Assembly: GCF_020169335.1 (NCBI RefSeq)
Contig: NZ_JAIEZN010000002.1
Span: 372,001 to 436,000, forward strand
Length of the DNA: 64,000 bases
From: Devosia aquimaris
GTDB lineage: Bacteria > Pseudomonadota > Alphaproteobacteria > Rhizobiales > Devosiaceae
Direction: 5' to 3'
Position 1 is the first letter of the stretch; every line of letters begins with the position of its first letter. The notes below the pieces were generated by a model. The model ran no database searches. It saw only the letters and a list, made by a program, of their open reading frames with translations, and had not been told where the DNA came from. Position numbers and translations under genes: made by a program. This document shows positions 40,626 through 50,248 of the stretch, in pieces.

Positions 40626-40639
40626 GTTTCACGTGAAAC
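40626..40639. other. parS site 2 (perfect palindrome)
   Basis: GTTTCACGTGAAAC, a perfect 14-bp palindrome identical to the alphaproteobacterial parS core, lying directly at the 3' end of parB. It is the ParB loading site nearest to parAB. Confidence 0.85.
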
Positions 40640-41514
40640 TAATTGGCATATCCGGTGAGCTTGACGCAGAGCCCGTCGAGCTGTTCGAGCGTCTTGTAGC
40701 GGATCTCCAGCTTGCCGCCGCGTTCGCTATGCGCCAGCGACACCGAAAGCCCCAGGGCATCGGACAGGCGGCGCTCCAGCGCCACCGTATCGGCATCGCG
40801 CTCCTGCGCCGAAGCGCTGGGCTTCTTTGTGCCGGCAATGTCGCGCTGCTGGCTGAGGGCTTCGGCTTCGCGCACCGACAGGCCGCCGCTGACGATCTGC
40901 CGCGCCAGGGTGGCCGGATCCTCGGCGGTGATCAGCGTACGGGCGTGGCCGGCGGTCAGCGAGCCGCTGGAGACCATTTCACGCACATCTTCGGGCAGGC
41001 GCAGCAGACGCAGCGTATTGGCCACATGCGAGCGGCTCTTGCCGATCACCTGCGCCAGATCCTGCTGGGTATAGTCGAACTGCTCGATCAGCTGGCCATA
41101 GCCCATGGCCTCTTCCAGCGGATTGAGATCGGCACGCTGCACGTTTTCGATGATGGCCAGCTCGAGCGCTTCCTTGTCATCGACATCGCGGACGATCACC
41201 GGCACGTCATGCAGGCCAGCGCGCTGCGCGGCGCGCCAGCGGCGCTCACCAGCGATCAGCTCGAAGATATTGGGATCATTGCTCGGCCGGACCAGCAGCG
41301 GCTGCATCACGCCCTTTTCGCGAATCGAATTGGTCAGCTCTTCGAGCTGTTCGCTGTCGAAGGTGCGGCGCGGATTGGCGCGGTTGGCAATGATGAAATC
41401 GACCGGCAGGCGCTTCACACCACCCGATTCGGTGACCCTGGCGCCCTCGACAGTGGCCATATCGCCAATCAGGGCAGCCAGCCCGCGGCCAAGACGTGTG
41501 GGTTTATCGTTCAT
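40639..41514 (-). CDS. parB: chromosome-partitioning protein ParB
   Basis: A 291-residue parS-binding CTPase that loads onto parS and spreads as a clamp, forming the segregation complex with ParA. The CTP motif GERRWRA is at 89-95, the ENVQRADLNPLEEA box at 123-136, the helix-turn-helix at about 150-171 (DLAQVIGKSRSHVANTLRLL), and a C-terminal dimerisation region at about 240-291. The N-terminal RLGRGLAAL motif is the ParA-contact region. Its stop touches the perfect parS site at 40626-40639. Confidence 0.97.
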   Translation of the reverse strand: MNDKPTRLGRGLAALIGDMATVEGARVTESGGVKRLPVDFIIANRANPRRTFDSEQLEELTNSIREKGVMQPLLVRPSNDPNIFELIAGERRWRAAQRAGLHDVPVIVRDVDDKEALELAIIENVQRADLNPLEEAMGYGQLIEQFDYTQQDLAQVIGKSRSHVANTLRLLRLPEDVREMVSSGSLTAGHARTLITAEDPATLARQIVSGGLSVREAEALSQQRDIAGTKKPSASAQERDADTVALERRLSDALGLSVSLAHSERGGKLEIRYKTLEQLDGLCVKLTGYAN

Positions 41515-41524
41515 GGACGGGCTC

Positions 41525-42325
41525 CTATGCCGCGTTGAGCTGCCGCTCGCGGCGGATCACTTCGGTGGCCAGGCGCAGATAAGCCTGGCTACCGGCACAT
41601 TTCAAATCATACAGCAGCGCGGGCTTGCCATAGGAGGGCGCCTCCGACAAGCGCACATTGCGCGGGATGACCGTGTCATAGACCAGGTCGCCCATTTCGC
41701 TGCGCACGTCATGCAGCACCTGTTCGCTCAGATTATTGCGCTTGTCGAACATGGTCATCACCACGCCCTGGATGGAGAGGCGCGGATTGAGCGTCGAACG
41801 GATCTGTTCGATCGTCTGCAGCAGCTGGCTGAGACCTTCGAGCGCAAAGAACTCGCACTGCAGCGGCACCAGCACAGCATCGGCCGCCACCAGCGAATTG
41901 ACGGTGAGCAGGTTCAGAGACGGCGGACAATCGATCAGGATATAGCTGACCGGCTTGTCATTGATGCTGAGCTCATTGAGCTGCTTGAACGCGTTGCGCA
42001 GCTTGAAGGCGCGATCGGCATGACCGGCAATGGTCAGCTCGACGCCCAACAGGTCCATCGTCGAGGGGACGATGGCCACATTGGGCACGCTGGTCATGAT
42101 CGCCGCCTGCGCCACGCTGGCCTCGCCAACCATCAGGTCATAGGAGGAGACTTCACGATCCGTGCGGGAAATGCCCAGACCCGTCGAGGCATTGCCCTGG
42201 GGATCGAGGTCAACAATCAGCACGCGTTCGCCGATAGCCGCCAGGGCCGTGGCGAGATTGATGGCGGTTGTGGTCTTGCCCACGCCGCCCTTCTGATTGG
42301 CCAGTGTCAGGATACGGGGTGCCAC
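41525..42325 (-). CDS. parA: chromosome-partitioning ATPase ParA
   Basis: A 266-residue deviant-Walker ATPase. The P-loop KGGVGKTT is at 12-19, the second Walker motif VDLDPQGNASTGLG is at about 38-51, and DCPPSLNLLT is near 127. The C-terminal region FDKRNNLSEQVLHDVRSEMGDLVYDTVIPRNVRLSEAPSYGKP is typical of chromosomal ParA. It segregates origins with ParB-parS. The gene lies between rsmG and parB with 10-24 bp gaps, part of one minus-strand run. Confidence 0.97.
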   Translation of the reverse strand: MAPRILTLANQKGGVGKTTTAINLATALAAIGERVLIVDLDPQGNASTGLGISRTDREVSSYDLMVGEASVAQAAIMTSVPNVAIVPSTMDLLGVELTIAGHADRAFKLRNAFKQLNELSINDKPVSYILIDCPPSLNLLTVNSLVAADAVLVPLQCEFFALEGLSQLLQTIEQIRSTLNPRLSIQGVVMTMFDKRNNLSEQVLHDVRSEMGDLVYDTVIPRNVRLSEAPSYGKPALLYDLKCAGSQAYLRLATEVIRRERQLNAA

Positions 42326-42349: not shown

Positions 42350-42997
42350 CTAACTAACTGATTTCTCTCGCAAATTGCTTAGCGTGAGAAGGACACCGCT
42401 TCGATCGGTGTCGCTAGGGCTTATTAGCACGTCATAGTCCCAGCGCGTAGCGCTTTCGGCGATTTCTTCAACATGTTCCCGCCCTTTGTGCAGGATTGCC
42501 CGGGTTTTCGGCGTCATGAAAGGCGCCATCCAGCTGCACAATTGCGGCAGGCTGGCCAGCGCACGGGAGGTGATGACGTCGGCCGGTGGTGTTTCACGTG
42601 AATCAATCTGGTCGGTTCGCCGCCCTTCTACAGTGACCATCAACCCCAGTTCACGCGCCACGGTGCGCAGGAAGCTGACCTTGCGGCCATTGGGCTCCAT
42701 CAGGGTGAAGTGGCGATTCGTCCCCTTGAGGGCAATGGCCAGGGGCAAAGCCGGCAGCCCGCCACCGCTGCCCATGTCGATGAAGCTCTTGTCGGCCTCG
42801 GTCAGCAGGTTGAGAACCTGCAGGCTGTCGGCAAAATGCCGTGTCCAAACCTCGTTCAGTGTTTCACGTGAAACAAGATTCTGTATCGACTGCCACTTGC
42901 GCATCAGGACAGCATAGGATTCCAGATCGGCGGCAACGGCCTCGATCGGTCGCGCCAAGTGGCGCTCATAGGGCGCGATTGCGGATAGATCGGCCAT
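42350..42997 (-). CDS. rsmG: 16S rRNA (guanine-527-N7)-methyltransferase
   Basis: A 215-residue Rossmann-fold enzyme (formerly GidB) that methylates G527 of 16S rRNA. Motif I is DMGSGGGLPALPLAI near 71-85, followed by LMEPNGRKVSFLRTVARELGL and TVEGRRTDQ. Two parS sites lie inside the coding region (42591 and 42861), constraining its codon choice. It is placed directly after mnmG (1-bp gap). Confidence 0.95.
   Translation of the reverse strand: MADLSAIAPYERHLARPIEAVAADLESYAVLMRKWQSIQNLVSRETLNEVWTRHFADSLQVLNLLTEADKSFIDMGSGGGLPALPLAIALKGTNRHFTLMEPNGRKVSFLRTVARELGLMVTVEGRRTDQIDSRETPPADVITSRALASLPQLCSWMAPFMTPKTRAILHKGREHVEEIAESATRWDYDVLISPSDTDRSGVLLTLSNLREKSVS
42591..42604. other. parS-like site 3 (one arm variant, contains GANTC)
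   Basis: GTTTCACGTGAATC, one mismatch from the palindrome, inside rsmG. It is the exact reverse complement of sites 1 and 7, and its variant arm GAATC is a CcrM motif. Confidence 0.7.
42861..42874. other. parS site 4 (perfect palindrome)
   Basis: GTTTCACGTGAAAC, perfect, extended to a 16-bp palindrome by T42860 and A42875, inside rsmG. This is the best match in the window to the Caulobacter-type parS consensus. Confidence 0.9.
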
Positions 42998-47715: not shown

Positions 47716-47729
47716 GATTCACGTGAAAC
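47716..47729. other. parS-like site 7 (one arm variant, contains GANTC)
   Basis: GATTCACGTGAAAC, one mismatch, between hemJ and rho. The arm GATTC is a CcrM motif, and the site equals site 1 and the reverse complement of sites 3 and 5. It is the parS-like site closest to the putative oriC, about 1.5 kb away. Confidence 0.7.
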
Positions 47730-48186: not shown

Positions 48187-49212
48187 TTAGCCGTTCTTGA
48201 CCCGATCGATCAAGCGCGCCACGTGCTCGATGGGCGTCTCGGGCACAATGCCATGGCCGAGATTAAAGATATGCGGCCGGTCGGCGAAGGCGGCAATGAT
48301 CGCATCAACCCGTTCGTCCATCTGTGCCCCGCCAGCCACCAGGCGCAGCGGATCGAGATTGCCTTGCACAGCCAGACCAGCCGGCAGGTGTCCGGCGGCA
48401 AAATCGAGCGGCGTTGCATAGTCGAGGCCCAGCGCATTGACCCCCGTGCCGGCCGCATAGCGCGCCAGATTGCCGGCGGCGCCGCGCGGAAAGCCGATGA
48501 TCGGCGCATTGGGAATGCGGGCCCGCACGCCCTCAACGATCCGGCGATTGGGCGCGATCACCTGCGTTTCAAACGCCGCGTCGTCCAGATTGAGCGCCCA
48601 GCTCTCGAACAGCTGCACCACATCGGCGCCCGCCTCGAACTGCCCGACCAGATAGTCGATGCTGGTTTCGACCAGGATATCGATGAGCTGCGCAAAGGCC
48701 TCGGGATGGCGCAGGGCAAACAGCCGTGCGGCTGCCTGGTCGGTCGAGCCGCGGCCACCGATCATATAGGTCGCCACTGTCCAGGGTGAGCCGCAGAACC
48801 CAATGAGAGTCTTGTCGGCAGCCAGTTCGGCGCGAAGCCGCGACAGCGTCTCGAACATCGGCGCCAGATGACCCAGCGCGCGCTCGGGCTTGAGCGCTCC
48901 AATGGTCTCGGCAGTCACCGCCTCAAGGATGGGACCTTCGCCCTGTTCGAAGCGGACTTGCTGTCCCAGGGCATCGGGAATGACCAGGATGTCCGAGAAC
49001 ATGATGGCCGCATCCAGATCAAACCGGCGCAGCGGCTGCAGCGACACTTCCACAGCCAGATCCGGCGTGTAGCAGAGATCAAGGAAGTCACGGGCCAGGG
49101 CACGGGTCTGGCGGTATTCGGGCAGATAGCGCCCGGCCTGGCGCATGATCCACACCGGTGGCCGCGTCTGACGTTCGCCCAGAACCGTGGCGAGCAAAGG
49201 CTTATGGCTCAC
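48187..49212 (-). CDS. hemE: uroporphyrinogen decarboxylase
   Basis: A 341-residue enzyme that decarboxylates uroporphyrinogen III to coproporphyrinogen III. Substrate-binding motifs are PVWIMRQAGRYLPEYR near 19-34, YTPDLAVEVSLQPLRRFDLDAAIMFSDIL near 48-76, GFCGSPWTVATYMIGG near 138, and the NLGHGI-type HIFNLGHGIVPET near 313-325. The start is GTG at 49212. In Caulobacter the chromosomal origin lies beside hemE, and the region upstream of this gene has the same kind of signals. Confidence 0.96.
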   Translation of the reverse strand: MSHKPLLATVLGERQTRPPVWIMRQAGRYLPEYRQTRALARDFLDLCYTPDLAVEVSLQPLRRFDLDAAIMFSDILVIPDALGQQVRFEQGEGPILEAVTAETIGALKPERALGHLAPMFETLSRLRAELAADKTLIGFCGSPWTVATYMIGGRGSTDQAAARLFALRHPEAFAQLIDILVETSIDYLVGQFEAGADVVQLFESWALNLDDAAFETQVIAPNRRIVEGVRARIPNAPIIGFPRGAAGNLARYAAGTGVNALGLDYATPLDFAAGHLPAGLAVQGNLDPLRLVAGGAQMDERVDAIIAAFADRPHIFNLGHGIVPETPIEHVARLIDRVKNG

Positions 49213-49344
49213 GTCAAACTTCCCTTCCCAAAAACCCCAAAGAGTCTTTCTGACTTAGTATTTGCATTATCATGGCGGTGTTTTGAGCCAATTCATTGCT
49301 CTCCACAATCGCGACGGTGGCGGCACAAGCGCGCAGGCTCATGG

Positions 49345-49359
49345 TTAATGCCCTGTTAA
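49345..49359. promoter_or_regulatory. CtrA box 1 in putative oriC
   Basis: TTAATGCCCTGTTAA, an exact TTAA-N7-TTAA, the full CtrA recognition sequence of alphaproteobacteria. A GANTC site follows 3 bp after it at 49362. Confidence 0.75.
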
Positions 49360-49401
49360 CAGAGTCTGGCGCCGCGCTCATCAACCACGTCGTCACAACT
49401 G

Positions 49402-49416
49402 TTAACGAAAGCTTAA
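49402..49416. promoter_or_regulatory. CtrA box 2 in putative oriC
   Basis: TTAACGAAAGCTTAA, a second exact TTAA-N7-TTAA, followed by three closely spaced GANTC sites (49423-49442). Confidence 0.75.
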
Positions 49417-49545
49417 CGCGGCGACTCCGGAGTCAATGATTCGCTTTGCCATGTGCAAAACCCCTTGGCGTCGCCCACTGACCCGAAAGCAGTTTTCCCC
49501 AGAGCTCTCCACCGGCCTGCTGGACCCTCCCCGGCAGTCGGGGTG

Positions 49546-49560
49546 TTAACACTTTGGTAA
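49546..49560. promoter_or_regulatory. CtrA box 3 in putative oriC (one mismatch)
   Basis: TTAACACTTTGGTAA has TTAA-N7-GTAA, one base from consensus. It lies between the DnaA-box-like sequences at 49493 and 49625. Confidence 0.5.
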
Positions 49561-49654
49561 CCAACGGGGACAAGTTTGGCGTCCTGGCAAAACCATGAGT
49601 CATTGTCACAGCTTGGGCTTGAGCTGTGCATGACAGTGTGGAAAACATGGTCCC

Positions 49655-50248
49655 ATGTTGATCCTTGCATCCCGCAGCGCGACCCGCAAAGCCTTGTTGC
49701 AGCAGGCCGGATTGCGCTTTACCGCCGTTCCGGCCGAGGTCGACGAACGTGCACTTGAAGCCGATGCCGTTGCGGCCGGTGGCGATGGGCGAGACGTGGC
49801 AATCATCCTGGCGCAGCGCAAGGCAGAAGCTGTTTCTGCGCTTCATCCCGGCGCCATTGTGATCGGTGCCGACCAGACGCTGAGCCTGGGCAGCGAACTT
49901 TTGCACAAGCCGACCAGCCGCAGCGATGCCGCCAGCCAGCTCGATCATCTGCGGGGCAAGACGCACCGACTGCATGCCGCCGTGAGCCTGGTGCGAGACC
50001 GCGCCGTCATCTGGTCCGATATCCAGACCGCCGAGCTGACGATGCGCGACTTCACCCCCCAGGAGCGCGACGATGTGCTGGACCGTGAAGGCGAGGCGGC
50101 GCTGACATCAGTCGGCGGCTATCGCCTGGAAGGGCCGTCCATTCGCCTGTTCGAAACGGTCACCGGCGACTATTTCACCATTCTGGGCCTGCCGCTCCTG
50201 CCGCTGCTGGCCGCCCTGCGCAGCTTTGCGCCCGAGACATTGCAGTGA
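49655..50248 (+). CDS. maf: Maf-family nucleotide pyrophosphatase
   Basis: A 197-residue dTTP/UTP or m7GTP pyrophosphatase of the Maf family. Motifs: MLILASRSATRKALLQQAGL at the start, IGADQTLSLG near 69-78, and FTPQERDDVLDREGE and SVGGYRLEGPSI in the second half. Maf proteins cleave non-canonical nucleotides. The ATG at 49655 follows the putative oriC directly. Its stop overlaps the aroE start by 4 bases, so it heads the maf-aroE-coaE-dnaQ unit. Confidence 0.93.
   Translation: MLILASRSATRKALLQQAGLRFTAVPAEVDERALEADAVAAGGDGRDVAIILAQRKAEAVSALHPGAIVIGADQTLSLGSELLHKPTSRSDAASQLDHLRGKTHRLHAAVSLVRDRAVIWSDIQTAELTMRDFTPQERDDVLDREGEAALTSVGGYRLEGPSIRLFETVTGDYFTILGLPLLPLLAALRSFAPETLQ

Follow-up and report, generated by a model that had tools for sequence, protein, structure and literature searches.

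A Caulobacter-type oriC with CtrA sites is already a known kind of replication origin: the available text of PMC1914354 describes origins in Caulobacter and Rickettsia that adjoin hemE and carry CtrA sites. The interest of the locus reported here is that it belongs to an order, the Hyphomicrobiales, whose model organisms lack CtrA sites at that place; for Brucella abortus, the accessible part of PMC2877005 reports that CtrA does not bind the origin. The window analysed in this work is a stretch of 64,000 nucleotides (G000:C2:372001-436000) from a Devosia genome of 3.81 Mb in three contigs, whose HemE shares 95% identity with its counterpart in Devosia sp. FKR38. In this window, a 442-bp intergenic gap (49213..49654) holding a cluster of motifs separates hemE (48187..49212, minus strand; TIGR01464, 389 bits) from a gene for a Maf-like nucleotide pyrophosphatase (49655..50248, plus strand), which matches NF002690 at 234 bits (cutoff 269) and TIGR00172 at 106 bits (cutoff 117), both below cutoff. 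As the preliminary description had pointed out, the two flanking genes point away from the gap.

We consider, with a probability of roughly 0.8, that this gap is a Caulobacter-type oriC under direct CtrA control. The two parts of this reading deserve separate grades. That the gap is the chromosomal origin, as proposed earlier, has good support from the clustered motifs and their conservation, from hemE as a neighbour, from the nearby parS sites and ParAB genes and from the arm-polarity signals that switch in the region, and appears very probable. That CtrA acts directly on this origin is suggested by the conserved sites together with a CtrA that scores above its equivalog cutoff, and seems reasonably probable. 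In the mechanism that we propose, DnaA would bind boxes at the maf end and halfway along the gap and would open the AT-richer stretch towards hemE, where the replication machinery could then be loaded. CtrA phosphorylated through the CckA-ChpT-CtrA relay would bind the three TTAA-N7-TTAA-type sites and block opening or loading by DnaA until it is cleared, and CcrM would methylate the GANTC sites, the methylation state possibly recording whether the origin has already been copied. Initiation at the gap, binding, unwinding, repression and the role of methylation are all steps that we infer from sequence.

Motif content of the hemE-maf gap

The CtrA-type, DnaA-like and GANTC motifs named in the preliminary description were all recovered. 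Two perfect TTAA-N7-TTAA sites occupy 49345..49359 (site 1) and 49402..49416 (site 2), and a third CtrA-type site, TTAA-N7-GTAA with one mismatch, occupies 49546..49560 (site 3). Two candidate DnaA boxes, both on the minus strand, fit TTWTNCACA: TTTTCCACA at 49637..49645 and TTTTGCACA at 49452..49460. Two weaker candidates, CTCTCCACA (49299..49307, plus strand) and TCATGCACA (49625..49633, minus strand), each show two mismatches to the consensus box TTATCCACA, which does not itself occur in the gap. A further 9-mer, TTTTCCCCA (49493..49501, plus strand), has a TCCCCA core and presumably resembles the TCCCCA weak boxes of Caulobacter. GANTC is present six times (49242..49246, 49362..49366, 49423..49427, 49430..49434, 49438..49442 and 49597..49601). 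The AT content of the gap is 46% vs 36% for the window, and the AT-richest 40-mers (49230..49270, 67.5% AT) mark a possible unwinding region. An IHF-like site with one mismatch to WATCAN5WTR lies inside a conserved block at 49268..49280 (plus strand); the gap holds five such one-mismatch matches, vs 0.83 expected at the window's rate, and no perfect ones. Outside the gap by 58 bp, within the 5' part of hemE, stands the box TGATCCACA (49146-49154, plus strand), which we take to be the Caulobacter G-box sequence. No RNA gene was found in the gap, the sole match up to E 0.5 being located inside maf and far under the gathering score.

This motif cluster is beyond chance. The two perfect TTAA-N7-TTAA sites of the gap are the only ones in the window, where TTWTNCACA has just a third copy (at 49899, inside maf) and GANTC occurs 81 times, or 0.56 per 442 bp. 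When the gap was shuffled 20,000 times with dinucleotides preserved, two perfect CtrA sites never appeared, whereas at least six GANTC appeared in seven shuffles and at least two TTWTNCACA in 16. The whole genome has 24 perfect CtrA-type sites, vs eight for a reversed-pattern control, and at a uniform density of 24 genome-wide the probability of two in 442 bp is therefore about 4e-6. Eight of these 24 fall in a segment of about 140 kb on another contig (G000:C1:1645423-1787292), perhaps a CtrA-regulated region. In a motif-density scan of 404 kb of the window's own 1.15-Mb contig, counted per 442 bp, the gap had three CtrA-type sites within one mismatch (elsewhere at most one) and three DnaA-like boxes (elsewhere at most two, a small lead), and its six GANTC were tied elsewhere, where the maximum is also six. 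Counted in 500-bp windows, the best one reached four DnaA-like boxes, but it extends into maf, where one of them (49899) lies.

A somewhat unlikely alternative accepts the gap as the origin and assigns its CtrA-type sites to the regulation of the divergent hemE and maf promoters instead of initiation. CtrA is also a transcription factor (PMC2877005, in its accessible part), and the sites are 95-334 bp from one or other of the two start codons, as would suit such a role. Nevertheless, they sit among DnaA-like boxes, and only in this gap, among all 24 perfect sites of the genome, are two found less than 100 bp apart. No terminators were found, nor any sigma-70-like promoters, and the latter result weighs weakly against promoter regulation, given a promoter scan that does not cover CtrA-type promoters.

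Chromosomal setting and strand asymmetry

The parS cluster claimed to be close to the gap is indeed there. The window contains eight parS-like palindromes with up to two mismatches, two of them perfect (40626..40639 and 42861..42874); seven of the eight are to the left of the gap, at distances of 1.5-17 kb, and one is to its right, at 11 kb; the nearest, with one mismatch, is at 47716..47729. Counted strand-wise, these are 16 matches in the window, vs a shuffle mean of 0.56. The genes parB (40639..41514, minus strand; Pfam ParB_N, HTH_ParB and ParB_C) and parA (41525..42325, minus strand; Pfam AAA_31 and CbiA) are located at 40.6-42.3 kb, less than 9 kb from the gap.

The predicted proteins of the genome include homologues of DnaA, CtrA, CcrM, GcrA and ChpT. 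The dnaA gene lies on the maf side of the gap, 154 kb away (C2:575 kb). Only one of 11 OmpR-type regulators (L119) passes the CtrA model NF045991, at 427 bits vs a cutoff of 350, and a ChpT-type HPTransfase is encoded about 2 kb from this ctrA. The CcrM-like protein (L123) is the single N6_N4 methylase with a RAMA domain (N6_N4_Mtase plus RAMA), and its best NCBIfam match is CcrM at 627 bits, below the cutoff of 830. The GcrA candidate is above cutoff for Pfam (176 bits, in a match that runs across one stop) and below it for NCBIfam (149 bits, cutoff 280); the ORF, in L124, has 196 aa.

Arm polarity was sampled in 16-20-kb stretches of the window's own contig and of eight single-contig relatives, the five Devosia genomes among these nine being represented by contig C2 of our genome and by the single-contig genomes G026, G010, G028 and G004. 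The expectation that the GC-skew minimum would fall at the gap failed: each of the five Devosia genomes had a mean GC skew below zero on either arm, without a sign change, and negative values were obtained in 85 of their 100 sampled stretches, the right arm contributing 40 of its 51. As its sign is constant across the gap in Devosia, GC skew was rejected as an origin locator. We do not count the lacking switch as refuting the origin, since no usable switch was found anywhere in the sampled stretches of the genus. Nor is the method blind, because two further genera of the family (G041 and G046, not G091 and G090), sampled in the same way, gave means below zero on the left and above zero on the right. 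C is in excess on the maf-sense strand in each of the five Devosia genomes, a strand offset of GC skew that the genus shares. The accessible text of PMC1914354 states that, for several Alphaproteobacteria, GC skew did not suffice to predict the origin, and SkewDB, in the part available, counts about 250 chromosomes with asymmetric skew (PMC8941118). In Devosia, an origin search based on GC skew would give a wrong position or none.

Third-position TA skew behaved differently from GC skew within the genus, its mean being negative left and positive right of hemE in all five Devosia genomes; among four other genera of the family, the expected sign change was present only in G046. A further polarity signal came from the octamer GGGCAGGG, which we take to be KOPS-like (GGGNAGGG). 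In E. coli, KOPS motifs are oriented from the origin towards the terminus (PMC2680272, in its accessible part). At more than 300 kb from the gap, GGGCAGGG was found on the expected arm strand 340 times vs 38, pooled over the nine genomes, and the best single switch fell between -607 and +335 kb of hemE in all nine. Genome-wide, our genome has 360 forward and 355 reverse copies, and the first 100 matches listed, taken as ordered by position, are all on the plus strand in C1:1-624 kb. Two other candidate markers were dropped: arm-learned octamers other than GGGCAGGG showed weak, lopsided right-arm polarity, which we attribute to the GC offset, and 16S orientation was abandoned as the primer pattern matched three of 41 genomes, none of them single-contig.

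In four of the five Devosia genomes the octamer switch is offset from the gap. It is bracketed at +30/+89 kb in our genome, +71/+291 kb in G010, +78/+238 kb in G028 and +62/+222 kb in G004, which places it on the maf side at a distance of 30-291 kb; in the fifth, G026, the bracket is -264/-64 kb, and a break up to +96 kb also fits, since the -64 stretch is without a site. The brackets of G041 (-94/+256 kb) and G090 (-95/+335 kb) include hemE, and those of G046 (-563/-113 kb) and G091 (-607/-107 kb) lie left of it, on two and one sites, respectively. As an observation in itself, this KOPS-like break is displaced from the putative origin, with left-arm polarity of GGGCAGGG persisting up to about 80 kb on the maf side (0 to +40 kb in our genome, +71 in G010, +78 in G028 and +62 in G004); between 0 and +78 kb these four genomes have two forward and 18 reverse copies. 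The displacement is mild evidence against the exact position of the gap, and the signal supports an origin in this region, not the gap itself.

These data bear on a second, improbable alternative, which keeps the true origin in this region but places it farther to the maf side, by tens of kb up to about 290 kb, perhaps at dnaA. The octamer switches of our genome and of G004, G028 and G010 would agree with it, as would the third-position TA skew of our own contig, which is still negative at +89 and +147 kb, short of dnaA at +154 kb. Against it, the stretch around dnaA (L137) reaches maxima of one DnaA-like box, no CtrA-type site and four GANTC per 442 bp, and no 442 bp of the scanned contig, 404 kb of 1.15 Mb, equals the gap in CtrA-type sites or DnaA-like boxes. 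Third-position TA skew, moreover, flips at -58/+62 kb in G004 and -82/+78 kb in G028, single stretches being noisy, and the octamer brackets of G041, G090 and G026 accommodate hemE.

Conservation in the family and distribution in Hyphomicrobiales

The conservation of the gap was examined in sequences upstream of hemE drawn from 80 named loci and 30 loci of a genus set (including our own, L082); 39 Devosia gaps, less three duplicates (L092, L100 and L101), left 36 distinct ones. In the Devosia relatives (L002-L010 and L082-L111) the length of the gap ranges from 433 to 451 bp. Among the 36 gaps, CtrA site 2 is perfect in 34 and within one mismatch in 35, with 23 distinct spacers, and its half-site columns are 99% identical vs 60% for the spacer. 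Site 1 is perfect in 12 and within one mismatch in 32, with 20 distinct spacers and a mean identity of 87% in half-site columns (one column 47%) vs 70% in the spacer. Site 3 is never perfect and is within one mismatch in 29, also with 20 distinct spacers, its first half-site being conserved and its second weaker. Since the spacers vary, the half-sites appear to be selected beyond the surrounding sequence. Among the DnaA boxes tested, only that at 49637 is present in every Devosia gap (TTWTNCACA and NNNTCCACA, 36/36); the box at 49452 fits TTWTNCACA in 17, the weak box at 49299 fits NNNTCCACA in 28, the TCCCCA core at 49493 is kept in 30, and the weak box at 49625 has the exact NNATGCACA in only three, though the block around it is conserved. 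The GANTC sites at 49242, 49423, 49430, 49438 and 49597 are kept in 34, 24, 33, 30 and 26 gaps, respectively, and that at 49362 is poorly conserved (four).

At the level of the family, a pair of perfect CtrA sites with 20-50 bases between them was sought in 121 genomes and found in 45, at 47 places, vs six of the 121 for a reversed-pattern control. In 40 genomes, 30 from the window's genus and 10 from g16, the pair precedes the hemE match by 132-245 bp (41 places), and the remaining six places are in G049, G072, G075 (two), G077 and G122. Within the window's genus, 31 of 60 genomes have the pair, 30 of them beside hemE, and 29 are without it; the reversed control gave 0/60. In several small genomes of two genera of the family, g10 and g13 (for instance G049, G058, G060, G064, G066, G070, G072 and G075), the HemE match is absent or distant (32-35% identity), and the hemE landmark may therefore be missing there.

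For the comparison across Hyphomicrobiales, 600 bp upstream of hemE were taken where maf was not found (eight of the 80 named loci) or lay at least 800 bp away, and one locus without sequence upstream of hemE (L056) was left out, leaving 63 of the 64 other named loci. At least one perfect CtrA-type site occurs in all 16 named loci of the Devosia/Pelagibacterium clade and in eight of the 63 others: four of Cohaesibacter, one each of Afifella and Aurantimonas, a Phyllobacteriaceae MAG and one very AT-rich uncultured locus. The match of L025 may be due to chance, because its gap has 23% GC. In all four Cohaesibacter loci (L019, L021, L024 and L029) a perfect CtrA-type site precedes hemE, and every locus shows two sites, perfect or with one mismatch, that stand 21 bases apart; Cohaesibacter is thus a second Hyphomicrobiales lineage in which CtrA might control the origin. 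On a HemE tree the presence of a CtrA site requires six changes vs about 22 for shuffled labels, and still six without L056, a result that reflects one gene and in which near-copies make the label look clustered.

As Caulobacter and Rickettsia origins carry CtrA sites (PMC1914354, accessible part), retention in Devosiaceae with loss in rhizobia and Brucella seems simpler than an independent gain at the origin in Devosiaceae, which we do not favour. We lean slightly towards direct CtrA control of the origin being present in Devosiaceae, and likewise or independently in Cohaesibacter, and having been lost in rhizobia, Brucella and their relatives. If this is true, the lack of CtrA action at the origin, as found in Sinorhizobium and Brucella, would reflect a loss particular to their lineage rather than a general feature of the order. 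A family with conserved CtrA sites at its origins offers a natural comparison for the gain or loss of a cell-cycle checkpoint, since the experimental models of this order initiate replication with no CtrA at the origin. The openly accessible literature searched on Devosia with CtrA, GC skew or replication origin gave no title or opening of an abstract about a Devosia origin. A third and improbable alternative, in which the CtrA-type sites are non-functional remnants of an ancestral origin under CtrA control, would fit the 55 of 63 other named loci without a perfect site and the origin of S. meliloti, not bound by CtrA according to the accessible part of PMC4433202, but at all three sites the half-sites are more conserved than the spacers, which suggests ongoing selection.

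Comparison with known origins

A contrast to the proposed Devosia origin under CtrA control comes from the same order. The origin of Sinorhizobium meliloti is described, in the available text of PMC4433202, as having no CtrA motifs and no bound CtrA. In Sinorhizobium medicae (L052) the gap is also beside hemE, but the 600 bp upstream of this gene have no perfect CtrA site, and a Kinase-PPPase (DUF299) gene (L052:3765-4586) stands between the gap and maf, whereas Devosia gaps abut maf directly; DUF299 is the family that flanks the Caulobacter origin. Brucella, of the same order, likewise has its gap beside hemE (L072), and the loci compared (L072, L054 and L074) have neither a perfect nor a one-mismatch CtrA site in 600 bp. 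For Hyphomonas neptunium, which belongs to a different alphaproteobacterial group, one site adjoining the origin has been reported in the part of the source available.

Outside the order, the origins of Rickettsia and Wolbachia resemble the gap in their hemE flank with predicted CtrA, DnaA and IHF sites, and differ from it in their AT-rich genomes and in a second flank of COG1806 or COG1253 (PMC1914354, accessible text). Cori of Caulobacter crescentus differs in its second flank, COG1806/DUF299 in place of the Maf-like gene; in having five CtrA-type sites vs the three predicted from sequence in the gap; and in an IHF site (PMC1914354, same portion), where the gap has one-mismatch IHF matches only. 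We treat the COG1806/DUF299 flank as not defining, because the predicted origins of Wolbachia and Ehrlichia have COG1253, and the GC-skew shift likewise, because it is one of seven elements that are not all required (both from the portion of PMC1914354 available). In the same source, Caulobacter crescentus Cori, like the Devosia gap, lies beside hemE and contains DnaA boxes, several TTAA-N7-TTAA sites and an AT-rich region.
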